A stretch of 64,000 bases of DNA, from assembly GCA_949130485.1 (NCBI GenBank), contig OX422185.1, positions 5,350,928 to 5,414,927 on the forward strand, written 5' to 3'. Positions within the stretch are counted from its first letter, which is position 1. Each line of letters starts with the position of its first letter. The DNA comes from Agelas oroides (taxonomy: Eukaryota > Porifera > Demospongiae > Agelasida > Agelasidae). Shown in pieces: positions 3,026 through 63,300 of this stretch. The notes below the pieces were generated by a model. That model was not told the DNA's origin and did not search any database. It worked only from the letters and a program-made list of their open reading frames with translations. The position numbers and the translations under genes were made by a program.

Positions 3026-3467
3026 TAGCCTCGTTCCCAGGCCTCCCCCGTTTTTTTTTGTTCTTAATTCACCATAATAAGCAGAAGCGGGAGAGTGGTG
3101 AAAAACGGGAAAGGCCTGGGTTTATTGATCACGTGAATGGACGCGAGGTGGATGTGGGGAGGAATGGTTGATATTCAAATATGTATACCCTAAGCTCAAA
3201 AGTGAGTTTGTTACGGGTCAAGACAAGTAGTTTTGACCACACCAATGTTTGGAGTCCAGAGTGCTCAAATGGATAATCCAGTGCATTGTTTTTGTAGTTC
3301 GGCCCCTCCCCCTACATCCACCTCACGTCCACCTGACGTCATTCACATGATGAATGAGTGCAGGCCTTCCCAGCTTTTCGTCGCTCTTCCTCTTCCATGT
3401 GTACTTGTGTACTGAACACAAGCAAGCCAAAGAACAAAAAAACGGGGGAGGCCTGGAAACAAGACTA
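3026..3467. mobile_element. 442-bp foldback element, TAGCCT family
   Basis: It starts TAGCCTCGTTCCCAGGCCTC and ends with the complement of a near-identical sequence, giving terminal inverted repeats of about 40 bp including a T-run/A-run. The flanks ACTCAGAGT (3017-3025) and ACTCAAAGT (3468-3476) are a 9-bp target duplication with one change. Copy B (from about 8820) keeps the left end and has lost the right end. Confidence 0.75.
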
Positions 3468-9830: not shown

Positions 9831-11063
9831 GTTGGTGCTTGATCGCAAAAATCTCAAAAATTTCTGCCTCGCGAACATTTCCCATTATACAGTGATACAT
9901 CAATAAACCTGAAATTCAAAAGGTGTACAAAGTCAACAGCAGCCTCATTAGCTAGCCCCAGCCCCCAGCTATCTCCTCTGCCTCCTCTATTTTCTGTCAG
10001 GGTGGAAGGAGACCCTGGGAATGAGGCTACTCTAGTTGGGGAAGAGTGACTAAATTGACTCTCCCTTAACCTACCACTTTTGGTTATGTCATACTGCCAG
10101 TGCGTAGAAAAGATAGTCTCTGTGTGCTTGCGCACAGGTTCGGCATCGGCAGAAAGGATGGGACAGGGGGAGATGGGTGGGGTCACCCGCAGGGTGCTGT
10201 GCACATGGCAGCTGCTAGGCTTGGCTGTAAAGTGGCCGTGGTTGGCACTGAATGGGCTTAGAAAGTGCTACTCTCACCTTGTAGGGAAGGCTGTTTAGGT
10301 TCTGAACTGGTATTTGCTAGACAAGAACACTGACTATCACATGCTTATTAATGAGTGGGCTTGGTTAAAGTTATCCAGCTCAGTTTTCGGAGTCAGAGAT
10401 CACGAAGATTTAAAGTGCTTGAAAGGAATCTCCCCCCCAAAAATTAAGTGTTACAGTATAGACCCAGAGTAACTGGGACTCCAAAAATTCACTTTTCGCA
10501 AAATGGTTGGTTTGGACACACGACTAGGTACCTATTTGTGGTCTTACCTTATATACCCAGGCTCGTTCCTAACACTTATGGGTTTTGCGTGACGTCATGT
10601 GGTGAAATATTGATTACAAGTTTAGAGATATTCATTGAGAGTTTGAGTTATTCATGAGCTATGAATCTAGGTATCCCAAGTGTTTGGTGTTGTGTGTGAG
10701 AAGGTCTGTAGATCTGAGTGACATTTCTTGTCACATGGGGCGGGGCCTACTGCATAAGAATGTCATAATTGCATTTGACATCTGGGACTCTGACTGCTGC
10801 ACACTGTGCACAGTATGGTTAACAAAAGCTCAAGAAGACAGAAGTCCCTTGGGAAAGCCGAGAGCAAGCCGCAAGGCAAGTTCATTTTACCTCCAATTCA
10901 CAGTTCGAAATCCAATGCTTATGACATGCACATATAATTATACATTCTGCAATCTGGTTCGAGGTCTCAGATTGGAGGGTGAACCTGTCTACCCAATGAA
11001 ACATGAAAAGTCACTCTGAACACCACACTCTCGTTCTTGCACATACACCAACAGACTTTGCAA

Positions 11064-11744: not shown

Positions 11745-12210
11745 AAGAGTCTGCTTAACTCTTTAACAACCCTAGGCAATTTACTGGAAGTGTTTAATAG
11801 GCTATGGATACCTTCCTTGGTCCGTATTTTCACTTCTGCTTGGAGCTAGCACTGGAAACTTGAGTCAAAGCTTTATTGACATATTCTCTGTGGGTTCATG
11901 ACCTTGGACACACCCACTCATTAGCAAACGTTCAATAGTCAGGGCCCTCTGACCAGAGAACGCTCCTCTGGACTAAAAGCTGCCTAAAATGCCAGAAATG
12001 GAGTCCCTACAAGGTGAAAGGAATGTTTTCTACGCCCGTTTGTGCACGAAAGCAGACAAATGGCCCACTGGTGCTGACCAGAGCTTTTCTACAGGCAGCT
12101 GCAATGGCCGCCATGTACTGTCAGCCAGAGCGGTGCACCCACCCACCTCCCCCTGTCCCACCCTTTCTGCTAAGGCTTCAAAGGAATCTCCCCCCCAAAA
12201 ATTAAGTGTT
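11745..12210. other. Repeat fragments upstream of the retroelement
   Basis: 11760-11960 is the reverse complement of 33890-34120, the second half of the GTTAAAG-ended element. 12120-12170 resembles the complement of 10140-10200. The short ORFs here do not resemble proteins. Confidence 0.55.
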
Positions 12211-12227
12211 ACAGTATAGACCCCGGT

Positions 12228-15125
12228 GTGCCGAGTGTAGTTATTGCTAGCACCTCGAAGACTATGCAGGAGGTTAGAGGTGTGCCTCTTGTTGTTGATG
12301 CTAGCACCTCGAAGACTCAACAAGAAGACACAGGTTTGTCATGCACCAGTGCCACGAACAATCCCAGATCCCAGCAGCATCGAAGACCGAACAGCATTAG
12401 CAAATGTAACCGCAAGAATTGCCTTACATGCCCTATTTTTAAGCCTGACACAATGTTTAGAAGCAGTGTCACCGGAAAAACGTACAAAGTTATAGGCTCA
12501 GGAGACTGGTCTTGCAGCACCTCGAATGTTGTCTATTTAGTTACCTGTCAACGCTGTGGCATACAATATGTAGGAGAGACAAGTCAAGCCTTGAGGAAAA
12601 GAATGAACAACCATAGAGCCAACATTAAAAGCCTGAAGCCTCAATTTTTATACAAGCATTTTACATCTGACGGGCATAGACTCGAAGACATGTTTGTTCA
12701 GCCTATCGAAAGCATTGTAGTAGCTCCAAACGAACAAACTAGTACTTACTCAAAACGTCTAGAAAGAGAAGAGTTCTGGATTAGAGAGCTTAAGACTGTA
12801 TACCCATACGGCCTGAATGACAACATTCGTGGTGTCGGGAACATCTCCAAGCAAAACGACGAGCTTATAGTCTGGAAGTTTTTTAACAAGCATTCTAAAA
12901 CTAGGAAGCGAAAATCAAAACGACCCAGTCGCAAGAATACAAAAAAAAACACTAACCCTCGTGATTGGCTTAAAAACAAACTTGGTGATTACAAATCCAT
13001 GTGTTTTCTACATAAATACATTAGTGCAATTTTTGGGCTTAGAAATACCTCTCTTAGGGATACCAGGACACTCGTTGAGGAACAACTCCATCTCCATACC
13101 TTTCCTACTCATCTCCTTCTGATTTTGAAGGATTTGATCAAATTTAGACTAGGTTCCTCTCAGCCTCAGCCTCAGCCTCCGAAACAGCATACCAAAGAGA
13201 ATAACCGTAAGCATTTCTTGAAAGTAAAATTCCATAACAAAGGCATCGAAATGATCAACTTAAGCGGGATACTCCGTTCCAGGCAAGTTAAGGACACAAT
13301 CCCAGTGTTTTTTGAGCATAACGAACCCCCAACGGTTTCTTACAAATATACCAAGACTATAGGACCCTCAGTCTTCAACTTTAAAAAAGTTACAGAGAGC
13401 ATTAACCTATCCAGCAACGACTGCACAACCTGCAAATGCAGTTCATCTGCCTTTCTTTACCAGCCTTTAGGCCATGTGGTCACCGGTGACCTCAGCATCA
13501 TAACCAATAGGAAACTTAGACACCTCATTAAAAAAGGCCCTAATTTTAGAGAGCAAAATAATATCAACTGGGATCTGTGTCTGAAACTGTGCATGGAGGG
13601 AGTACACGATTATAGAAATACATGGGCTTCTAGAGAGGGAGTAGACCCGTGCACACTCAATGAGTGGGCGGGCACGGTGAAACTCCTTATTGAAAAGAAC
13701 ATCAAACGTCTCGAGTCTCGGGGACATAAAACAAGAAAAAGACAAGTTTTGAAAGACACTAGGTGTAGGACAGCCCTCCGGGAACTCCACAACGAATATG
13801 TCCTGGTACCTGCAGATAAAGCTAGCAATAACATAATCATAGTCTGTAAGAAATACTACACTGAGGTGATTAGAAACGAACTAGCTGGAAAGAGTGGGAA
13901 AGCATCTACATATGTCCACTGTAGGGATTCTGTAGACCAGATTGTACAAAAACATTTAGCATACATGCATAGCACGAAGGTTAAAGTAGCAGAAGACATG
14001 AAGAGATTGCCTGGTTTTTACTGGATGCCTAAACTACACAAAAATCCCTATGGACATCGCTTTATAGCAGCTTCTGCCTCCTGCACAACCAAATCTTTAT
14101 CTAAGCTGCTTACCCACTGTCTCCAGCTGATACTTAAACATTACAAGGAATATTGCAATGGTATAGAAAGAAGAACCGGGGTAAACTGTTTTTGGGTCAT
14201 TAACAACTCCACTGAAGTGACTAACACCCTAGAAAAGTTGAGACACGCAAGAGCATTGGATAGCTTTGATTTCAGTACACTCTATACTAACATCCCCCAT
14301 AGTCAGCTCAAAACACGCATGGAAGAGTTAATTAGAAATGCATACAATACTAGAGATGCCTCCCACATGGCCTTAGGAAAAGATTATGCTTACTGGACTT
14401 CCAGACCTGTAGCTAATACCCGTAAATTAACGGTGAACCAGTTAGTTGAGATGTTCAATTTCTTGATAGATAACATATACATCCAGATAGGATCAGCTGT
14501 CTACCAACAAACAATTGGCATCCCTATGGGTACTGATTGTGCTCCATTAGTTGCGGATCTATTTCTTTTCTCCTATGAATTTGAGTTTATGAAATCCCTA
14601 ATCCGGACTGACCTCTCTGTAGCAGCTAAATTTAGTAATACTTGCAGATATATTGATGACTTGCTTACACTTAACAACCCTGATTTTCAAGCATGCATAG
14701 GCCAAATTTACCCCCCAGAATTAGAGCTTAAGAAAACTACAGAGAGCCATGACAGCTGTTCCTACCTGGATCTTAACATTAATGTCCTGAATGGTAAGTT
14801 TTGCACAGACTTGTATGATAAGAGGGATGCCTTCAACTTTTCAATAGTCAATTTTCCACACATGGATAGCAACATACCCTCAAAACCAGCATACGGAGTA
14901 GTAATTTCACAGTTAGTTCGATATTTGAGGATATGTTGTAATTACCAAGATTTTGTTTACAGATCTAAACTACTCACAACCAGATTACTTAGACAGGGAT
15001 ACGTATACCAAAAACTCTGTAGCACCTACAAGACCTTTGTGCATCGCTACCCCAGGACTTTACAGAAGTACGGGAGGTGCCTGAAAAACATTATTACTGA
15101 ATGCATTGCCATAGCTACTGTTTAA
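12228..15125 (+). CDS. Penelope-like element polyprotein: Zn finger, GIY-YIG endonuclease, reverse transcriptase
   Basis: An open frame of 965 codons with no stop or frameshift. The first codon is GTG; the first ATG is codon 13 (12264), so the true start is either there or lost by 5' truncation. Two DASTSKT-like repeats precede a CxxxxCxxC finger (C60, C65, C68). The GIY-YIG nuclease follows (about 100-200): VVYLVTCQRCGIQYVGETSQ, the arginine of LRKRMNNH, the glutamate of REEFWIRE and PYGLND. The middle is a basic linker. The RT starts at about 530 with VLVPADKAS, then MPKLHKNP, FDFSTLYTNIP (Asp681), GIPMGTDCAPLVADLF, the catalytic YIDD (808-811) and SYLDLNINV. Nicking of target DNA followed by primed reverse transcription is the expected mechanism for this family. 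The intact frame suggests recent activity. Confidence 0.92.
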   Translation: MPSVVIASTSKTMQEVRGVPLVVDASTSKTQQEDTGLSCTSATNNPRSQQHRRPNSISKCNRKNCLTCPIFKPDTMFRSSVTGKTYKVIGSGDWSCSTSNVVYLVTCQRCGIQYVGETSQALRKRMNNHRANIKSLKPQFLYKHFTSDGHRLEDMFVQPIESIVVAPNEQTSTYSKRLEREEFWIRELKTVYPYGLNDNIRGVGNISKQNDELIVWKFFNKHSKTRKRKSKRPSRKNTKKNTNPRDWLKNKLGDYKSMCFLHKYISAIFGLRNTSLRDTRTLVEEQLHLHTFPTHLLLILKDLIKFRLGSSQPQPQPPKQHTKENNRKHFLKVKFHNKGIEMINLSGILRSRQVKDTIPVFFEHNEPPTVSYKYTKTIGPSVFNFKKVTESINLSSNDCTTCKCSSSAFLYQPLGHVVTGDLSIITNRKLRHLIKKGPNFREQNNINWDLCLKLCMEGVHDYRNTWASREGVDPCTLNEWAGTVKLLIEKNIKRLESRGHKTRKRQVLKDTRCRTALRELHNEYVLVPADKASNNIIIVCKKYYTEVIRNELAGKSGKASTYVHCRDSVDQIVQKHLAYMHSTKVKVAEDMKRLPGFYWMPKLHKNPYGHRFIAASASCTTKSLSKLLTHCLQLILKHYKEYCNGIERRTGVNCFWVINNSTEVTNTLEKLRHARALDSFDFSTLYTNIPHSQLKTRMEELIRNAYNTRDASHMALGKDYAYWTSRPVANTRKLTVNQLVEMFNFLIDNIYIQIGSAVYQQTIGIPMGTDCAPLVADLFLFSYEFEFMKSLIRTDLSVAAKFSNTCRYIDDLLTLNNPDFQACIGQIYPPELELKKTTESHDSCSYLDLNINVLNGKFCTDLYDKRDAFNFSIVNFPHMDSNIPSKPAYGVVISQLVRYLRICCNYQDFVYRSKLLTTRLLRQGYVYQKLCSTYKTFVHRYPRTLQKYGRCLKNIITECIAIATV

Positions 15126-15323
15126 CGCAGCCTGAACATGCAGTTTACTTGGCTTGGCACATTTATGCACACACAGCCTTTAAACACGCACTGTTTGCCT
15201 TACACTGTTTGCCTTGTGCCTTATTAACAATACTTCCGGTACCTCCAGTGCCTCTGTATGCGCGCGCGCGCGCACGAATCACCTGACTGCATTCTGTGCA
15301 TGAGATAGCAGTCCCCATCTCCC

Positions 15324-15388
15324 GGTCACCCCAGCGCAGCTGATGAGGCCTGGTATTGGCCGAAACGCGTCCTGCGCAGCGGGTGACT
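15324..15388 (+). ncRNA. Type I hammerhead ribozyme with minimal helix III
   Basis: All core positions are present: CTGATGA (15340-15346), CGAAAC (15361-15366), GCGTC (15367-15371) with cleavage expected after C15371. Helix I: 15334-15339 pairs perfectly with 15372-15377, and after a small internal loop 15326-15331 pairs with 15381-15386. Helix II: four pairs (15347-15350 with 15358-15361) closing a 7-base loop. Helix III has only two pairs with a GC loop, but its ACGCGT is self-complementary, so dimeric folding is possible. Hammerheads of this minimal form are known from Penelope-like elements, and it lies about 200 bases after the stop codon. Confidence 0.85.
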
Positions 15389-15440
15389 TTGCATAACATC
15401 TAAGCCTGTTTTATAAGGGAGATGTGGTTCGTTGATTGTT

Positions 15441-15497
15441 CATGCAGCCAACTGATAACATGCAGCCAACTGATAACATGCAGCCAAAACTGACAAC
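15441..15497. repeat. 18-bp tandem repeat at the retroelement 3' end
   Basis: Two exact units of CATGCAGCCAACTGATAA and a third diverged unit. Confidence 0.85.
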
Positions 15498-15539
15498 ACC
15501 TGCATGCTAAAAAATAATTAGGCCTAACAGTATAGACCC

Positions 15540-32970: not shown

Positions 32971-44329
<11,359 letters not shown>

Positions 44330-45452: not shown

Positions 45453-48400
45453 CTAATCCTTATCTTGTAATGGTCTGGTTTTTGCGCTGTCAGTCCCAAG
45501 TGGAACACTGGTCCTTTGATTTTCCTGTGAATCTTCACAGTCTATAGCTAATACTTTAGCTTCAAGGTTTCTGGCAAGTTGTTTCTTTTCCTTTTCCTTA
45601 CTAACAAAAGGTGGATCTGCAGCAACATCGACTGTCTGTTCTAAAGTTTCACAGTACTTACCTGCAGTAGGTATGTACCTAGTGCTTCTCTGTTCTGAGC
45701 CTTCAACAGTTGATATTGTCATTTGGTCTCTCTGAACAGGACCATCACCGCCCCCAACAGAAACATCTCCATTAGCTTTATCTTCATGACACTTAACTGC
45801 TTCAATCTCTCCAGCTAGTGTGTTGAGTTCAATATCGTGTAAAACTTCGGTTAAGGTCTCCCAGGTGACTGGGTGTTTGCCTCTGCCATTGACCCACTGT
45901 TGGAGGACCTCCATATTGATTTGTTCAGCATCATCCCTATGTTTGTTAGCTATGGAACAGATCCTTGCTCCCATGTCGTCCTCCAGGAGAAGGACACCAA
46001 ACTGGTAGTACTTGATACTAATCTCCTGGGGAATGTTGATTCTTCTTTCTCTTCCTCGGAATCTGATGCATTCAATCAGGTTTGGTCGATCAGCTTCATC
46101 ATCTATTAGAGCATAGAATATAAGCTAAAAGTGGAAGTTAATCAAATCTCCTGTAGCTATACAGGGAAACAAAATTTGATTAAGTGTAGCCAAATCAGAA
46201 AATGTGAGGCAGAAAGTCAAAACCCTATTAATATATTGTTAGTTCACTTTATTCTAAAGTGGAACAGGGTTATATGCAGTGAACACAGGCTTAACCTATT
46301 ATGGCCAACCTATAGCCAAGGGGACATTACATCCACACAGCTAGCTACTCCTTTGAAACACATTACATCCACATAGCTAGCTACCTTTGAAAACATGTAG
46401 AAATAAAACCCTAGCTGGGGGAATGGGGGGGCACAAAGTAATCACAGTTGTCAGAGTCAAAATGCACTCATTCTCTTACTGTGAGATGAACTGTCCACTC
46501 TGCTCTTATTTCCTCTTTCCTTATTTTCACCAGTTTTATTGAACTGACAGGAAAAGAAGAACACAGGAACTGCATTATATTTGTGAGGGCTATAGTAATT
46601 CAAAGCACATGCAGTATGTTATTCTGTAAGGCTTTGATAATGATGCTGAACAGCGGTTCAGGGACCAAACTAGATCGCATATGACTTCTATATATGTTGT
46701 ACTACATAGTAAATCACCCAATTGTGTTTGCTGGTAGCCTCTGTTTGCACACTGGACTGCCTCAGCATTTTTCGGAAGTATCCAGTCTCTCCTTCTGGAA
46801 CACACAGTAGTTCATGATTGAATAACCCCTGAACTGATCCCACTTCATTTGGGGAAGCATGTTTCATTATGTGGAGTTTCTCCTCTCTCATAGTGATACC
46901 ACTACCTGGTGAAATAAAGAGTAAGATCCAAATCCTTTTTGTAGCTAATGCATCTTAGTTATAGAATAGTACCAGCATGCAACAACTTCATGACTCCACA
47001 AAGTTTCAGAGTTGTTGGACTAGCTGTGTGTGTGGGTCTGGGTACATACCAAGGTTTTGGCTAGTTGTAATCCATGTTGACTGTTGAGCTGGAGAAGAAA
47101 CATTCAGTGACGTATCCATATTTTCTGTACCTGCATGTTGTACCAGGTGTAAAAGACAATGTTAGCAAGATGGTAGCTGAATACAAGACATGGAATATCT
47201 AATCATAACAACCATAATTGCAATGGAGACAAATCCTGCTGTGCACATATTTACTCTTAATGTTGGATGCACATACATGCAACTTACCATGGGTTTGACT
47301 GTCAATTGTATCATCTTGTTCAGAACTGCCTGAACTTTCGTCACCACTGTCAGAAGACTAATATAATGGAGCAATGGAGTATCAGTTCAAGATAAAGAAC
47401 TTGATCTGTGCTTACAGAATAAGCAGCTATACCTGATAAGGACATAAATTGCTCCGAAGTATTTTATACACTGAGTTCTGACTAGTAGAAACACTGTGTT
47501 CAATGGCTGTTCACTATATATAGGAACACTAAGTACTGCTTACCAAGTTTAGTGGATTTCTTCCACAAAAGATGCTGTACTTGTTAAGCTCTTGTCTTAA
47601 TGTTTTGTATGTGGCAGCAGGTCCCAGCTGCTCCAACCAGGCTTCCAAAATGTGTTTACACCTCAACTGTTGTCTGGATATTTCACCAAGACTGTCCGGG
47701 TGAACTTCTTTGTATTTCCCACTGAGAACGCTTGGATCTGGTTTAAGTGCTTTTTCAAGAGCATCACTGAATGGGTACATGCGACTGGCTAACTCTGTGA
47801 CAAAACTACTTGGTACCTTCTTCTTTACATTCTCCTTTGCAAACAGTTGTGTTATGAGATCTGCAGTTAGAACTGCATAAGGTTCAAAGTAAAGAAGTTC
47901 AGAAATTTTCTTTCCAGTACTTCCATCACTGTGTGTTAGCACTAGGTCTGGATCATCCTTTGGATCTCTGTTCGCAATTGTCCTACTGAGGTATTTGATA
48001 CCATGTGAAGGGCAATCCAATATCATTTGAAGATTGCCAGCTGCTACCTCCATTAGGCACTCCTCAACATGGACACAAGCACAAAACTCATTCTTTGCCT
48101 TTAAGATAGCTCCAATCAACTTTGTGCGAAGTCTGACACAGTGAATTTCTCTTCCTTCCAGGCAAATCATTTTGAGACTGGCAGTTTTCAAGTCTTTCAT
48201 TTCAAAAACAGCTTTTACACCATTTGTATCTGGCCAGCTTATGCCATTCTTCCACATGTGGCACCTACGACTTAGAACTGGAGTTTTAATCTTTCTGCTA
48301 CTTGGCATAGTTTCATCTTGTGGTGGAGCAAACAGGAAGGCAAGTCGGAGAAGTAGGACATGGAGGAACTGAGTGGTAAAGAATTGATCTTCTGCAGCAG

Positions 48401-51400
48401 AACACAATAGCCAATCACAGCAATAGGAAATTTCATGGGTCTCCTGTGATACTTGGGGCATATTCTCTGAAGTGACCAGAGCTGGAAAGAGGTAATATTC
48501 ATCATCTGATAGTGCTTGATTTGACCAGCTATCACCTACCCAGTCTAGGCCAACTCGATGACAGAACTCAAAATGCTCTAAGAATCCTATGACCATGCCT
48601 ATGTTAAGGTCAGGAAAGACTTCATTTATTCTGGACTTTGGGACAATTCCAGTGCTGCCTGGTGCAATGTGCTGTGGAAAGTTACGCGGGGCAAATATAC
48701 TCCCAATCACCGTTTCAAGCATTGCTGCAATATTGGTGATGACCCAGCAGTCACTAATGTCTTGGTCATTCTTTAAAAGAATAACCTGGCCTTTGTCATG
48801 TAAAGTTTGAACTAATGGCAGTAGTTCGTTTGGATTACTGGGAAGCAAGTATAGGTTGCCTTCAAGATCTTCAGAAATACTTTTAAGGCTACACCCAGGA
48901 ACACCCTTGTTGATGTATGCCTTGTGGACATACTTGTGTAGGACATAGCAGCGTTGGTCAATCTTTTCTGTTCTTTCTCTGATGGAATTACAGCTTTCCC
49001 CCAAATGATAGCGCAGAAGGTCCACTTGTGGAGAGGCAGGCTGTGTGCAGTCCAAGCATATGACTGCCTCAGTTTCATAAAAGTTATTTACAGAGAAACC
49101 TTGTTCAATTGTTGTAATTGCCTTTTCAATACTTCCCATATCAACTTGGTCAGCATGGCTTCCAACAAATATAACATGAGGTTTCATCTTATTATGAGTA
49201 CAACAGTCCTGAATAAATGACACCCAATAATGCAGAGATTGGCAAATATTGTCTTCGCACTGTGCAATGCTTGTCACAATTATAAAGATTCCTGTCATGT
49301 GAGTGGAATAGTTCTGCAAAAAGGCGGCATGACTTGAATGGAACTCCCGCTGGCCTACAAAGTGATAGATCATGACATCTCCAAAGTCACTACTACTGCA
49401 ACTGAACAAACTGATTCCAGCTGTTTGTTTTCTCACTCCTTGAACCTTCTGGGCAGTCAGTGAACTGAGAAATCCAGGATCATTTTGGATGGCTTGCACC
49501 AAAGAACTCTTTCCTGACATTGGGTCTCCCAGTACAAACACTTTGACAACCAACTCGAGGGGGTACTTCCCTTGGCAGAAATGATCAAGCAGTTTCCTGA
49601 TTTCTGGTGATGTTGCTATCTCCACTGGAGACAATCCATTTGTATTTTTGATCAGTGGATCACACTCACCAGTTGAAAGCAGGAATTGTACAACTTCCAC
49701 CTGGTGGGATTTGCAAGCAAAGTGCAGTGGAGTGTCACCTGAGTGTGCTGTGTGGACTAAATCACTGAGTTTTTCGCTGTGGAAGTATTGCACAATTTCA
49801 AGTTGGCCACTCACACATGCATAATGGAGTGGAGTTTGTCCCTCCTTGTCCCTGCATTGTGGGTTACACTTGTGTTCATTAATGAGGTACTTGACAACAT
49901 CAAGGTTGGGGTTTTGGGGTTGTTCACCACTTTTTTTACGATTGGCCCACATAGCATCACTCAGGATTTCATAATTGTACGTTTGTTTTGCAGGATTAGG
50001 AAATCCTGGCACCAAATTTGTAAGTAATTGTGTGACCATTGTGACTGGGAAAATGATTGCATGCCAAATGTGCAGAAGAATGTCAAAATTAGAAGTAGTG
50101 ATCTTTTCTGATGGTTGGTGTCTATTCTTGAACAAATTTTGCATGTCAATACAGGCAAAGTGTAGTGAGATAGCACCATCACCACTTCTAAAATGTGGGT
50201 TACATTCACATTCATCAATGAGGTACTTGGCAATGTTGAGGTCTCCAAAACAACATGCAGCAAACAGGAGACCAAGCAAGTCTTGGGAACTACTTTCACG
50301 AAGCAGATACTTTAACACATCAAGCTGACCAAACATGCATGCAAGCATGTCAAGTGGGAAACTGTTTTCATTACATTCTTGATTGCATTTTTGTTCACTG
50401 ACAAGCCACCTGATAATGTTGAGTTGTCCCCAAGCAGTTGCTACAGTCAATGGAGTAATAAAAGTGTTTTGATAATATGTGGTGATGGAAATTGTTTGTG
50501 GTGTACTTCCAACCACAGTACAGTTGGGATCACATTTACACTCGGTGACCAGATATTTGGCTATTTCAAGATGACCCATCATGCATGCAGTGTGCAGTGG
50601 GGTCAGGCCTAACAAACCTGCTGAAGAAGGATTGCATCCAGATTTTGCAATACAAGACTTAGTTGTTTCAATATCTCCAATAATACAAGCCTGCTGTAGA
50701 GGAGGAATGCACAAGTCGTCATTGCAGGCTAGACAATCACTGAAGTTAAACTCCAAAGGGTTTTGCCGAGCCTGTAGCACCAAACTACTAAGCACTTGTC
50801 TCCAGCTTGAACTGCGTTGGTGTTCATTTCTGAGGTAGACAACAACTTCTTTATGCCCACACAGCTGTGCAAAGTCAATTGCAGTGAGGCCATTGCTGGT
50901 AGAGTGGTCTGGGTTGCATTTGCACACATCAATGAGGTATTTCACCATGCGAAGGTGTCCTTTCATGCAAGCAAAATGTAATGGGGTGATTCCTTCAATG
51001 TATTTGTTAGTGATTTCTCTTGTTGTCCAACCATGCATATATTTAACAAACAAAAAGGTTTCATATGCTTTCACCATAAGTGAATTCTGTAGTGGAAAAC
51101 ATTTTTTTTTCGTTAGTGTTGAAAGCATTTCATCATTTATTGTAGCCTTGGGTTCATATGCACAATTTAGCTCTTGTATAAGATATTGAGCAACATGCAA
51201 GTGTCCACTGCCACAAGCTTCATGCAGTGGAGTAAGACCATCGATGTCAGCAAACTCTGGATTACAGCCAAGTTCACTGATGAGATACTTCACAACAGCC
51301 AGGTGGCCATTGCTAGCAGCAGAATGTAGAGGCATATAGCCATTAACATTCCCATGTTCATGATTACACTTGTGTTCACTGATGAGATACTTAGCAACTT

Positions 51401-53294
51401 CAAGATGACCTTCCTGACAAGCACAGTGAAGTGGAGTGTTGTCATTGCTTGTAGAGCATTGTGGGTTACAGTTGCAGTCTGAGATGAGATATTTTGTGAT
51501 ATCAAGGTGCCCGTTTAGACATGCACAGTGCAGTGGAGTGAGGCCATTACTGTTGGCAATCTGTGGATTACAGCCAAGCTCAATAATGAGGTACTTCACA
51601 ATAGCCAGGTGGCCATTACTAGCAGCTGAATGTAGAGGTGTATAGCCATTAACATTGCCACGTTCTGGATTACATTTGTGTTCAGTGATGAGATACCTTG
51701 CAACTTCAAGATGACCATTCCGACAAGCCCAGTAAAGTGGAGTGTTGCCATTGTGTGTAGAGAACTGTGGGTTACAGTTGCAGTCTGAGATGAGATATTT
51801 TGTAACATCAAGGTGTCCATTTAGACATGTATAGTGCAGTGGAGTGTTGCCATTACTGTCAGCAATCTGCGGATTACAGCCAAGTTCACTGATGAGGTAC
51901 TTCACAACAGCCAGGTGGCCATTGTTAGCAGCTGAATGTAGAGGTGTACAGCCATTAATATTGCCATCTTCTGGACTGCATTTGTGTTCAGTGATGAGAT
52001 ACTTTGCAACTTCAAGATGACCATTCTGGCAAGTACAGTGGAGTGGAGTGTTGCCACTGTTATCAGAGCATCGTAGGTCAGAGTTGCAGTCTGAGATGAG
52101 ATATTTTGTGATATCAAGCTGTCCATTTAGACATGCACAGTGCAGTGGAGTGAGGCCATTATTGTTGGCAATTTGTGGATTAGAGCCAAGTGCAGTAATG
52201 AGATACTTCACAACAGCCAGGCGGCCATTGCTAGCAGCTGAGTGTAGAGGCGTAGAGCCATTAACATTGCCATGCTGTAGACTGCATTTGTGTTCAGTGA
52301 TGAGATACTTCACAACAGCCAGGTGACCATGGAAAGCTGCTGAGTGAAGAGGTGTGTAACCAATAACATTGCCATGTTCTGGACTACATTTGTGTTCAGT
52401 GATGAGATATCTTGCAACTTCAAGATGACAATTCTCACAAGCACTGTGCAGTGGAGTGTTGCCACTATTGTCAATGCATTGTGGGTCACAGTTGCAGTTG
52501 GAGATTAGATATTTTGTGATATCAAGGTGTCCATTCAGACATACAGAGTGTAGTGGGGTGAGGCCATCGTTATTGGCAATCTGAGGATTACAACCATGCT
52601 TATCAATAAGATACTTTACCAAAGGTAGGCAGCCACTTAGGCATGCCAAATAAACTGAAGTGTTTCCAAACATGTTAGTGCAGTTAGGACTACACTGATG
52701 TTCCTCTATTAGGTACTTGACAACAGGAATTTGTCCACCAAGGCAGGCAAAGTGCAAAGGAGTGCTTCCTTTACTGTTGGACTGTTTTGGATCACAGTTG
52801 AAGATAGTAATCAAACACTGTACTATATCCAGATGTCCACTTTCACTGGCATAATGAAGGGGAGTATTACCAATACTGTCAACAACATTTGGATCACATC
52901 CTTGTTCAGTGATGAGGTAATTAACAGTTTCAATGTTACCACTTTCACTGGCTGCATGCAATGGAGTGTAACCATCATTGTCAGTGCAGTGTGGATTACA
53001 CTTGTGATCAGTTATGAGATACTTTACAATATGCAGGTGACCACTTTTGCAAACAATGTGGAGAGGAGTGCAGCCTTTAGTGTTGGTAGTTTCTGGTTTG
53101 CAGTTCTGATCATTGATAAGGTACTGAACAATGTCCAAATGTCCGTATTGGCAAGCAAGATGCAGGGGAGTGAGGCCTGAAGGATCCTTCACCTCATTAG
53201 GATTCAATCCTTGCTTAGTGATGAGGTCTTTCAGAGTGAGTAGGTCACCATCTGTGCACAACTGAAGTAGGTCTGATTCTGTATTTGAAGCCAT
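45453..53294 (-). CDS. Ankyrin-repeat, Roc-COR GTPase, death-domain protein (DAPK-like architecture without kinase)
   Basis: The first coding exon (53294-47544, ending at donor TTG|GTAAGC) has 1917 codons and starts with MASNTESDLLQLCTDGD after a likely acceptor TTATAG. Residues 1-1235 are about 30 ankyrin repeats (consensus TPLHxAC...GHLxIxKYLI). About 1240-1420 is a Roc-type GTPase: P-loop GDPMSGKSSL, FVGQREF, VGSHADQV. About 1430-1760 is COR-like, then a DD-like end (ILEAWLEQLGPAATYKTLRQ). Later exons: 47357-47288 (acidic SSDSGDESSGSS), 47130-47050, 46905 to about 46706 (a shortened DD, donor unsure), 46543-46480 and 46102-45453 (DD with GRGKHPVTWETL, then a charged tail, TAG). Compare DAPK1: kinase, ankyrin, Roc, COR, DD; here no kinase exon is seen. 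Likely a cytosolic scaffold GTPase in stress, death or immune signalling. Confidence 0.88.
51250..52560 (-). repeat. 306-bp higher-order repeat within the ankyrin array
   Basis: Within the ankyrin exon three repeat types alternate: A (LNGHLDITKYLISDCNCNPQ), B (GHLEVAKYLITEHKCSPE), C (SNGHLAVVKYLISELGCNPQ). The ABC set of 102 codons recurs four times, e.g. equivalent sites at about 51540, 51845 and 52150. One extra C-type unit breaks the period. DNA similarity is much higher than among the other ankyrin repeats, which points to recent unit duplication or conversion. Confidence 0.85.
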
Positions 53295-53299
53295 TGATC

Positions 53300-55020
53300 T
53301 ATAAGCACAGTTGACACTTCTCTTTTTATTAGCTGAAGGTTTTGAGGTTAATTGTTGTGGCTGTTATTGATGCAGTTTCATATTCTTATCAGTCAGAGAT
53401 GTACACAATCAAAGTTAAGCTGCAATCCTGTACATGACAGTAAGTAGTAGCAGTGCTGTAATCATGGTCGGTAGTGTTTATGATTGACAATATGCAGGGG
53501 TTTGATTTGCACATACTTTTTGATTGCTCCAAAGAAGCAGACATGTTGATCTTCTGATTTGAACAGTTTACAAAATTTACTGTAGTATAGTATGCTTTGG
53601 CTCATAATAAAGCAGAGTAAGAATTTTCGCGTACATATGAGTTTCTAAGATATGTAATTTTTAAACTACTTTTTACATTTCATACAAAATAACCAATTCT
53701 GGTTGTACAAATCTATTGGAGCACAAAAGTTTATATAGATGGGGTACAAATTAATAGAAGAATTGCACAAAATGATTAGAATGCACACATGCTATGAAGT
53801 TGACTGCCTACAGTTAGCCTCATTCTCAGTCCTCCCCTAGCTCCGGTTTTTGACTGCTTGTAAAAAGCTATGGTGGAAAAAGGCCTGGGAACTAGACTAT
53901 CTTACAGTCATTTATAAGCTTCTTTGTGTGGTTGAATTCACCGGGTGGTGCTGTTCTGTCACCAAGGATTGTGTCTTACCACATGCTATTTCTCTGTACA
54001 TTGGCACAGCCAGGTCACAGATGATGCCAAGGCAGAGCTATGCCACTGTCGCTGTGATGTGTCCAATGATAACTTTCCAGATGTCCCATCACTGCATATT
54101 AATTAATTTGTCATGTTCACTGTCCTTCTATGATTGTTGTGCTCAACAGTAGGAATGCCACTTACTAGTAGAGAAACTTTAATTCTATCATCACACACTC
54201 CTCAATCAACAGAAATATTACCTACTTAACCTAAAAGTTTGGGATCTTATTTTACTGAATAGTTGTACATCTTACAAAGCATTATTAAGTTTACTGATGG
54301 ATATCATCAACAATATATTGAGGGAGTGCTTTGTTGTAGTAAGCAGCTGCATCTGGCTGTATCTTTATTGCAGACTAGCATAATAGGTTGAAGTTGTAGG
54401 TTGTCTAGATACTGAGTAATGCCAATATGCTCGTGCCTAGTTCAGTTTACATTATCCAGAAGAATACAGGTACAATGTTAGGTTTATTATTACCATACTG
54501 AGGCATGGACAGGTGTCCTAAAGATGTGTACTCATATGAGGAAACATGTTCAATTTCTGCAAAACTTGCTATTAAATTCAGCTAGAGAAATACTGCAACT
54601 CATTCCCTCACAAAACCATACACAGTGGAGTTATTACATTGGCATGTTATTCATTTCACTGTCTGAGTTTGCAAAATTAAATTAAATTTCCAAATTCTTT
54701 ACTTCACAACTCCTTGTTCAGTGTTTATTTAAGTATTGCATCATTCAATTACTCATCTTCACTGAGTTCCAAATTTTATGCTGGACTCTTTCCAAACTTT
54801 ACCACCTAGGTCTTATTGTAATAAATGTCACGTACAAGGGTTTAGCAAGAGGAAGAAGTTCAAAGTACATCCCAGCAAGTGTTAACACATCAACCAAAAC
54901 TAGGTTCAGCTTTACACAATGCTATTTAAAAGAAAATGATAATTCACATGCATGTAATGAGACCAGGAGTGCATTGAATGCGGCCCAATACTAAAGTACT
55001 GATTAGCTATATATTTATTG
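53300..55020. other. Upstream region of the ankyrin gene
   Basis: Probably holds its promoter and a 5' UTR intron. One decayed foldback element at 53815-53899 (TAGCCTCATTCTCAG ... CTGGGAACTAGACTA; flanks GCCTACAGT and TCTTACAGT). No coding exon seen in the AT-rich remainder. Confidence 0.45.
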
Positions 55021-60301: not shown

Positions 60302-63300
60302 TTAGTTAACTGGTGACTTCGTTTGCATCCTAGTTTGAAGTTTAGAACATCTGCAAAGTAGATCTGTAGCAATGTCAGCTATCTGTCGTAGAATTTCTTT
60401 GGATTTACCACTTGCAGATTCATATCTGACACTTTCTTGTTTTGTGCTGTTTGTAACTTCAGTCTGTCTTTCTCTTACACCATGATGACCAAAAGTATCT
60501 TCACATACTCTATGGAGAGCAGGATTCTTTTCTCTTTCCTGGTTTGCAAGACATAGTTCAAACTCAAAACATCTAGAAACTAGTTTTGCAGCAATATCAA
60601 CAACCACTTGTAAAGCTTCATAAAACATGGCATACTCTATTCCACTTGCAGGCATATCTTCAAAGCCTTCTTGCACTAAGACTTTAGCAGTTCCTGCTCT
60701 TGGGCTATTTTGAAACTCTAGTAGTTCAAAACATCTGGAAACTAGGTTTTCAGTAATATCAGCTGTCTGTTGTAATGCTTCATCAACAATGTCTTTCTGT
60801 TCTGAGCCTTTAGTCACATCAGCAGCTGAGCTCTCTTGAATGGGAAAATCTTCCTTAGTTCTATGAAGAGCATTGCTCCTTTGGTTCCCTTCCTTTGAAG
60901 CAAATTCTAAATATCTAGAAGGTAGACCTGCACCAATGTCAGCTATCTGTTGTAAAGCTTCATTATATCCCTCAACATCTTCAATACCACTTGCAAGTGC
61001 ATCTCCTATGCTTCTTTGCTCTGACCCTTCAGTGTCTTCAGCAGCTATGTTGCTTGTGTGTCTTTGAAAGGGAGATTCTTCAGTAGAATTATCTCCTTCT
61101 AGAATTAGAAGATATAGTCATGGAAAGATGGAGTATATAAACACTGAATCTTAGCAATTAAAACAATGATACCACATAACTGGTGACAGGCAATGATCAC
61201 ATATAGCGGGCACTAGACAAAATAACGCTTTGTCGTTTGCAACAGCTGAAAATCTTGAGAAGCTCTAAAAAGCTGACACTATTGGCTATCCTTATGTATC
61301 AGTTCTTCACAGTGCATGAACAATCAATGAACCACATATCCCTAAAAAAAAATAGGCCTGGGTGTTATGTAAAGTCACCTACTGCGTAGGACGTGTTTCG
61401 GCCAGTACCAGTCCTCATCAGCTGCACTGGGGTGACTGGGAGATGGGGACTACTATCTCATGCACAAAATGCAGTCAGGTGGCTGGCCTTATCCAAAAGG
61501 TTGACAGAAGCTCTTCAAAGCCATCTTCTCTTTGTGCGGCTGTCTTTCGTTCGAAGATCGTAGCGATCATAATCATCACGTGTTGTCGCATGCATGCTGC
61601 TCAAATGACCATTATATTTCCCATTTGTCTAGGCTCTGCACACTGCCAAACAAAACAATCACCACTTACGGTAACTTCTTGGAAAGCTCAAAAGAACGCT
61701 TTCTTGAAAGCTTTCACCCTAACCTTTCCATCATTCTGACTAGCTCACAAGGAAGCAAGATTTGTTCCACTATTTGTGTTGCAGTTATAGTATCGTACAG
61801 TAGTTAATATATGGATGATGACTTTCTACTTCCCATTTTGTCAATTCCACTTTACTGAAAGTGGAAATTGACAAAGTGAGAATTGACAAAGAGGGAATGA
61901 GAGTAAAGCAACTAGCTACCATCAGTACTTACTGTAATCTCCCGAAAATAAGCCCACCCTCGAAAATACGCCCACCTTCGAAAATACGCCCACCCCCCTT
62001 TTTTGAATGAAGTTGTTGCAAAGGGTGCTTTTCTCTCGAAAGTATGCCCACCCGTTTATGCCACAGTATATGCTGTTATGTTAAGCAAGAAGCACCGAAG
62101 AAGCAGCACAGTGCAAGAGGAGGGACTAACAAATGAAGGCAGACACCATTTGCTGTTATTGTGTAAGCAAGCGCATGACAAAAGAGGCATTGAAGAATCA
62201 CTGCATGCGCGAATAATAAGGGATAGACTAACAGCGTGTGAGGTGGGCGTATTTTCGAGAGAAATATCACAACTCTTGAAAATACGCCCACCCCCCTCTT
62301 TTAGGAGCCACTTAAGTTCATTGCCCATGGGCATACTTTAGAGATTACGGTATTTGTGTACCCTATTGTATGACATAACGGCTATCTCCTATCACATTAG
62401 GTAGATAGTTTACCATAATATATAGCTAGAAATTGTGATTGGAACAAATAGACAGTATCTTACCATACAGTGAACAGCATTCTTCATTATTAGTTCTTTT
62501 TTTGCCACTTTCATCTGACTAATATCAGGAAAACAACATGTGAACAGTCGAGTATCTTTTGTTCAAGTACAATGTTATTATAACACTGTGATTATAGTGT
62601 TGTTAAGGACAAGAGAACAGGAGAGAACAACAGAATTGAACTATACCAAGGTATGCAAGTGTACAGCTAATCAACTTAAGTATATGCAGTTGGATCAGAA
62701 TGCACAATGTTATTGCTCCAGGAGCACAACCGTAAATGCTTGGTTAATCTGCATTAAAGAAATTAGATCCAAATCAGTGAAACTACCACTAGGTCTTGAT
62801 AAATAATTATGCTTGAGAATCATGCGGGAATACTAGGTACAAATGTTAACACATGTGAGAATAACAGGCATGAGTCTCTAGTTGCTGTAATATTTGCTCC
62901 CAGTTTGCCCTGGAGGTCACTCGATTAGTAACATGTAGTGTTGTTTCCTGTATTTCCCTGTTGCAGAACTTTTTGACCAACAAAAAAATATGCATAAGAA
63001 AATACACAACTCTAAAAAAGCATAACTGAGAATACTAGGGCAACTTTCAAAGCATAATGGCATAGCTAAGTCATGAGCATAAAGGAATAGAATAATGGAC
63101 CAATAAAAAGCATAATTTATCAAGGCCTAACTACCACACATTCTCAATCACAGTAGGCATTGGGTGTGTGTTGTGGTGATATCCACTGATACATGTCTGT
63201 TCACAAGTTGGAGGCAGAGGATAACATGATTCTAACATCATGGATGCAACCTTGCTATTTAGAAATGCACAGTCTGATGCTTGATTACCTGAAGTTTTCC

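Follow-up and report, generated by a model that had tools for sequence, protein, structure and literature searches.

Among Penelope-like elements (PLEs), the Naiad and Chlamys groups reportedly carry an N-terminal endonuclease (EN), a CxC motif in the linker and an insertion-in-fingers domain in the reverse transcriptase (RT), and this clade is said to lack a canonical hammerhead. A CCHH pattern is present in the EN of Naiad and reportedly absent from that of Chlamys. Here we describe an element of related organization in the sponge Agelas oroides, found in a stretch of 64,000 nucleotides (contig OX422185.1, positions 5,350,928 to 5,414,927) that is termed the window. Taken as a whole, it is read with fairly high confidence as a very young, 5′-truncated copy of an N-terminal-EN PLE that has a predicted hammerhead ribozyme and for which a TGCA-based model of insertion is proposed.

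By description, Naiad and Chlamys share with the window element the N-terminal GIY-YIG domain, the CxC linker motif, a longer region between RT motifs A and B′, pseudo-long terminal repeats (pLTRs), tandem copies and insertion that is often into TG/CA-rich DNA; Naiad also shares the cysteine and histidine pattern of the EN. The window element differs from the forms so described in having a predicted hammerhead, and its family in preferring the palindrome TGCA. The element is best read as a Naiad-like, N-terminal-EN PLE on the basis of domain order, the CxC motif and the longer A-to-B′ region, with Naiad and Chlamys compared by description only. Because the hammerhead is present, it would be a variant of the Naiad-like type.

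Canonical PLEs with a C-terminal EN (Penelope, Poseidon and PAc of Anolis; PMC11167929) resemble the window element in having a single ORF for RT and GIY-YIG, a tandem pLTR structure, a hammerhead and a fixed 3′ start of reverse transcription. They differ in that the EN is at the opposite end, and the window RT is only about 23% identical to those of canonical loci in the same genome. In addition, the ribozyme of the window element is in the 3′ untranslated region (UTR), does not overlap the open reading frame (ORF) and in arrays is separated from the following start codon by about 200 nt. The family favors TGCA, whereas AT-rich targets are described for canonical PLEs (PMC11167929).

The element and its parts are as follows.

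12225–15442, plus strand: PLE sequence of the window copy, which starts at position 213 of the 3556-nt unit of locus L008 and ends in GTTCA
12228–15125, plus strand: open frame of 965 codons from GTG, with the native start and first 26 codons absent
12246–12317, plus strand: two copies of an 18-aa repeat, with ASTSKT at residues 7–12 and 25–30
12405–12431, plus strand: CxxxxCxxC finger, residues 60–68, at the front of the EN module
12528–12797, plus strand: GIY-YIG endonuclease, residues 101–190 (Pfam)
12897–12947, plus strand: basic linker, residues 224–240
13422–13439, plus strand: CxC motif CTTCKC, residues 399–404, in the EN–RT linker
14040–14672, plus strand: RT core, RVT_1, residues 605–815 (Pfam)
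14265–14285, 14517–14546 and 14649–14660, plus strand: RT motif A, motif B′ and YIDD (residues 808–811)
14349–14432, plus strand: stretch that includes the A-to-B′ extension, a candidate insertion-in-fingers domain from its length relative to C-terminal-EN loci
15272–15279, plus strand: 8 nt in place of 133 absent unit nt (unit 3260–3392)
15324–15394, plus strand: predicted type I hammerhead ribozyme with minimal stem III (Rfam HH9, fold, descriptor)
15443–15446, plus strand: TGCA at the 3′ junction, where the host side begins

At the amino acid sequence level, the window element is a PLE with its nuclease N-terminal to the RT. One ORF encodes both the RT and the GIY-YIG nuclease, a defining property of PLEs, and Pfam together with motif positions gives the order finger, GIY-YIG, basic linker, CxC and RT with YIDD. 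The uninterrupted 965-codon frame and this arrangement were noted in a preliminary description of the locus, and both stand. The GIY-YIG match (Pfam E 2.7e-5) exceeds the curated cutoff and that to RVT_1 (E 2.4e-5) is just under it. The A-to-B′ distance is 83 residues, as against 59–62 in five C-terminal-EN loci of the same genome, and the EN has conserved C and H columns in common with the C-terminal ENs of that genome. A telomerase-like RT is a further mark of PLEs; here a search of PDB sequences gave no match at E ≤ 0.1. Two single-sequence structure predictions of the protein reached a pLDDT of 35, which counts against the interpretation.

Further copies were found in the genome (259 Mb, 141 contigs). 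In a nucleotide search in which the best 40 of 3072 candidates were scored and 90 matches listed, at least 10 copies among these matches, counting that of the window, cover the whole window ORF at 99–100% identity; one other copy covers it at 93% and the remaining listed matches are shorter. A protein search listed 49 matches, some of them pieces of a single copy; ten of these start with residue 1 and one with residue 2, whereas the other 38 start no earlier than residue 27. Nine fetched loci besides the window contain the start region, and these diverge pairwise by 0.11–1.01% (median 0.45%, 36 pairs). All have an in-frame ATGATG 26 codons upstream, which gives a 992-aa ORF, uninterrupted in seven; the other two stop at 110 and 581. 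The joined frame, being the same at these nine loci, is not a fusion of two repeats. The window copy has its own difference from all nine relatives at one of 3047 columns. Judged by this near identity, it is a very young copy that has recently jumped, as had been proposed, but in a shortened form.

Full copies are about 3.55 kb in length from TATGCC to GTTCA, with a short 5′ UTR, the 992-aa ORF and a 3′ UTR that carries the hammerhead sequence. The L008 unit of 3556 nt, with its ORF starting at ATGATG at unit position 135, was used as a ruler. Since start-containing relatives carry the upstream ATGATG, the window copy is 5′-truncated: it begins at unit position 213 and has no 5′ UTR, native ATG or first 26 codons. 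A further 133 nt of the 3′ UTR, between ORF and ribozyme (unit 3260–3392), are missing, and 8 nt stand in their place. The first description of the element as intact is not confirmed, and the GTG at 12228, taken as codon 1, is not the native start. Truncation at the 5′ end and tandem or partial tandem copies giving pLTRs, also PLE properties, are seen in the family. Window positions 61317–61587 on the minus strand hold a decayed and older 3′ piece of this PLE; its hammerhead stems are changed, and it starts after TGCATGC and ends in GTTCA-TGCA.

The 3′ end of the family is fixed and the 5′ ends vary. GTTCA forms 46 of the 47 3′ ends read in other copies (27 loci and 20 short regions, with GTTCA in 19 of the latter; L031 and L037, where the next copy runs off the locus, are not in the count). 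The 5′ junctions number 39, from 27 loci and 12 of 13 short regions, exclusive of the window copy, L070 (element not alignable) and L006 and L018 (upstream piece runs off the locus). TGCA is found within −8 to +2 of 23 of these (binomial 6e-20, with a background of 0.0077 per base in the window), and in 6, 0 and 2 of the 39 in control windows shifted by 10, 20 and 30 nt. On the 3′ side, it directly follows GTTCA in 20 of 46 flanks (2e-30; 1e-10 given TG), and 39 of 46 flanks begin with TG. Nine of 25 copies with both junctions read have TGCA on both sides. Several 5′ flanks without TGCA are TG/CA-rich, e.g. TGTACA.

Tandem joints display the same tetranucleotide. The joint GTTCATGCATATGCC is present in L004, L005, L006 and L008 and consists of GTTCA, one TGCA, and then TATGCC; L018 has a joint of the same spacing, so that five joints have exactly one TGCA each. 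A solo copy, L020, starts at the same base as the tandem units, after GTGTGCA. The family tends to insert at the palindrome TGCA, and this may explain the tandem alignment of copies. Several observations argue against such a rule. TGCA is missing at 16 of the 39 junctions on the 5′ side and at 26 of the 46 on the 3′ side, and is for this reason regarded as a preference, not a strict site. The control window at −10 is somewhat raised, as it should be for sites within TG/CA-rich DNA. The 5′ junction of the window copy itself is not TGCA, L081 has the sole 3′ end without GTTCA, and a short tandem piece in L082 has GTTCA followed by TGCC. The L082 segment (C2:20258286-20258336) reads PLE 3′ end, GTTCATGC, then directly the start of another hammerhead segment. 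In the open-licence literature nothing was found that joins PLE target sites with TGCA, and absence from print is not claimed beyond that literature.

A mechanism can be proposed in which the nuclease would cleave both DNA strands where it meets TGCA-like palindromes. Pairing of the released 3′ end with the UGCA next to GUUCA in the RNA would prime reverse transcription, and the 5′ end would be joined at the second TGCA. The TGCA left beside each copy would then be a target for the next, which would lead to head-to-tail arrays. The region shared in an array would act as the pLTR and would let the ribozyme process multimeric RNA into single units. The main tandem pattern would follow if a nuclease that cuts TGCA re-entered at the boundary of the element. 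Such re-entry fits properties of a canonical PLE protein, which is described as cutting both strands, at AT-rich sites, with reverse transcription starting inside the RNA (PMC11167929).

The hammerhead sequence at 15324–15394 is likely a self-cleaving RNA motif, as predicted from its core and stems. Its core bases are in place, stem I is made up of two helices, stem II has 4 bp and stem III is minimal; cleavage is predicted between 15371 and 15372. Rfam HH9 matches this stretch with 24.4 bits (E 7.7e-4 in a 441-nt search) and likewise matches L008 (E 0.0019). The fold z of the stretch is −2.9. A descriptor with five pairs in stem I and three in stem II finds no site in the unit but this one, and matches only 2 of 3000 shuffled sequences. 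The core pattern, with three or fewer mismatches allowed, occurs 898 times in the genome (451 and 447 by strand) and the reversed pattern not at all, which suggests that some 900 ribozyme-bearing pieces may exist. Minimal type I hammerheads of PLEs share the core bases, the want of a proper helix III and a pLTR location (PMC6155905); the host element here differs in its permuted domain order. Since ACGCGU is self-complementary and stem III is minimal, a dimer may be possible.

The alternative is that the sequence is a chance or decayed motif and inactive. The HH9 score is below the Rfam gathering score of 52; stem III is minimal; Rfam run over the whole window, where at gathering threshold only tRNA appears, and over eight loci lists no hammerhead; and no compensatory base changes or covariation were seen. 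The predicted minimum-energy fold of the stretch is not the active form, and three older copies (L053, L054 and that at 61 kb of the window) have kept CTGATGA and GAAA but have changed stems. Also, the hammerhead of a canonical PLE cut only with protein and was dispensable for insertion in vitro (PMC11167929). All of these weigh against a working ribozyme. However, the intact core and stems, the rarity of descriptor matches in shuffled sequence, and the agreement in pLTR position and missing helix III with published PLE hammerheads (PMC6155905) make an inactive motif quite improbable, and the self-cleaving motif is preferred. In the seven loci of other PLE families the descriptor has no match, but only L055 spans a whole unit and the evidence is weak; Rfam finds no hammerhead in L055, which belongs to a C-terminal-EN family. 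Absence from other families rests on these two results because the eight-locus Rfam search is too insensitive. Nothing was found in the open-licence literature that joins Naiad with a hammerhead, and absence from print is not claimed beyond it.

The boundaries of the window copy involve a host repeat, termed R, and a short direct repeat.

11755–12172: body of host repeat R, left of the element (match to L010, 91.6% over 419 nt)
12175–12223, plus strand: patch between R and the element that matches 10417–10465 (98% of 49 nt)
12211–12223: 13-bp direct repeat, left
15447–15500: end of host repeat R, right of the element, carrying an 18-nt tandem duplication
15527–15539: 13-bp direct repeat, right

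The sequence ACAGTATAGACCC (13 bp) is present at 12211 and 15527, on both sides of the element, and again at 10453, as the preliminary description had reported; it had been regarded there as a target-site duplication with an empty site in the same window. In that explanation, the element would have inserted at ACAGTATAGACCC with a 13-bp duplication, and the last 84 nt before the right repeat would be element sequence or be 3′-transduced. The exactness of the repeat on both sides and a similar copy of a second host repeat, H, at 10453 agree with this. However, GTTCA, with which nearly all other copies end, is at 15438–15442 in the window copy. The element thus stops at 15442 and not at 15526, and 15443–15526 (84 nt) is host DNA: 54 nt of it (15447–15500) match the end of R, which is whole at L010, and the last 26 nt have no R match. 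The 3′ flank TGCAGCC is the same as in R, and the element lies between R body and R end, which together lack only about 29 nt of the repeat. The 84-nt tail is found whole at the window locus only; elsewhere it has a single match, of 36 nt, to the R copy at C6, and among the genome matches listed there is no PLE at that R site. The window PLE has no match in 3 kb of L010. Transduction of the tail was also considered by itself and judged unlikely, as the tail is whole only here.

Because the element sits within R, which is split around it, the 13-bp repeat probably did not arise as a target-site duplication, and the sequence at 10453 is probably not its empty site; insertion at ACAGTATAGACCC is in our judgment distinctly unlikely. 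The patch at 12175–12223 resembles 10417–10465 more closely than the remainder of this paralogue does (87% to the right), so a by-product of the patch is the best reading of the 13-bp repeat. The preferred reading is that the window copy entered a TGCA within R, and that its 5′ joint would carry a patch copied from nearby DNA. A point against it is that no true empty site was found, so that a 4-nt duplication is only putative. R is also found at window 33749–34121 and at L010, is about 500 bp in length with inverted TTTAACCAC-like ends, and is perhaps a short DNA-transposon derivative. Repeat H is at window 4550, 10439 and 15527. Of 40 H matches listed, 37 are on contig C3, nearly all at 4.4–5.4 Mb and most only about 68 nt long, a clustering that suggests a local array.

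Other PLEs of the genome bear on the origin of the nuclease. Nine regions were fetched from the lists of the protein search and of an EN search (best 150 of 303 candidates scored, 150 matches listed); two, L053 and L054, are older copies of the window family. The other seven represent about four families at EN identity of 75% or more (L055/L058, L056/L057, L093/L094 and L092). In six of these seven loci the RT precedes the EN in one frame; in L092 the EN ends a 281-aa frame and an upstream RT-like match is weak (E 0.08). The EN, here C-terminal, has a finger of the form CxxxxCxxC or CxxxCxxC in all seven. The finger and the DASTSKT repeats had been suggested to mark a separate subfamily. Since all seven other loci carry the finger, it travels with the EN and defines no subfamily. 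ASTSKT is part of the 18-aa tandem repeat, which is in two copies in all 10 long copies read and in more in an older relative at C4, and it was likewise rejected as a subfamily mark. L055 (C1:19813000-19818400), of a canonical C-terminal-EN family, has three EN matches at a spacing of 4306 bp; a second long frame, proline-rich and of 556 codons, lies upstream of its main frame and overlaps it.

The RT and EN of the window element differ in their relationships. Its RT is 23% identical to those of five canonical loci (L055, L056, L057, L058 and L093), which are 31–44% identical among themselves with near-duplicate pairs left out. Its EN is 33–43% identical to the seven C-terminal ENs, which are 29–39% identical among themselves with the pairs L055/L058, L056/L057 and L093/L094 left out. 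In unrooted maximum-likelihood (ML) trees its branch is long for the RT (2.21 versus about 0.6 for others) and short for the EN (0.61 versus 0.77–0.94). By these measures the RT, unlike the EN, stands far apart from the others; an exchange of domains may be the cause, or the contrast may come only from the limits that a short domain sets. These values would fit a history in which the N-terminal EN was taken from a C-terminal-EN Penelope element, so that EN and RT have different pasts and do not descend from one ancient permuted ancestor. Yet with only about 135 residues the EN could be affected by saturation or by stronger constraint, two supports in its tree are 38 and 65, and both trees were built without an outgroup, Naiad or Chlamys sequences. 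We consider such a capture unlikely. In viral and prokaryote collections, tblastn after a scan with six peptide patterns, which detects close relatives only, found no relative. Elsewhere in the window, at 47529–53363 on the minus strand, a frame of 1944 aa combines numerous ankyrin repeats with a Roc GTPase domain, which would point to an animal host.

PLE site choice and the reason for tandem arrays are poorly understood. The wider proposal, which we advance tentatively and put somewhat short of an even chance, is of a permuted lineage with a working hammerhead, a palindrome-specific nuclease that is perhaps from a C-terminal-EN element, a TGCA boundary that recruits the next copy, and arrays that are cut at the RNA level. 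The young family offers a testable rule: TGCA is favored at both ends, and a single TGCA separates the copies at each of the five joints read at full-length starts. The presence of a hammerhead in a permuted element, if true, would suggest that the ribozyme predates the split in domain order or has moved between the two orders.

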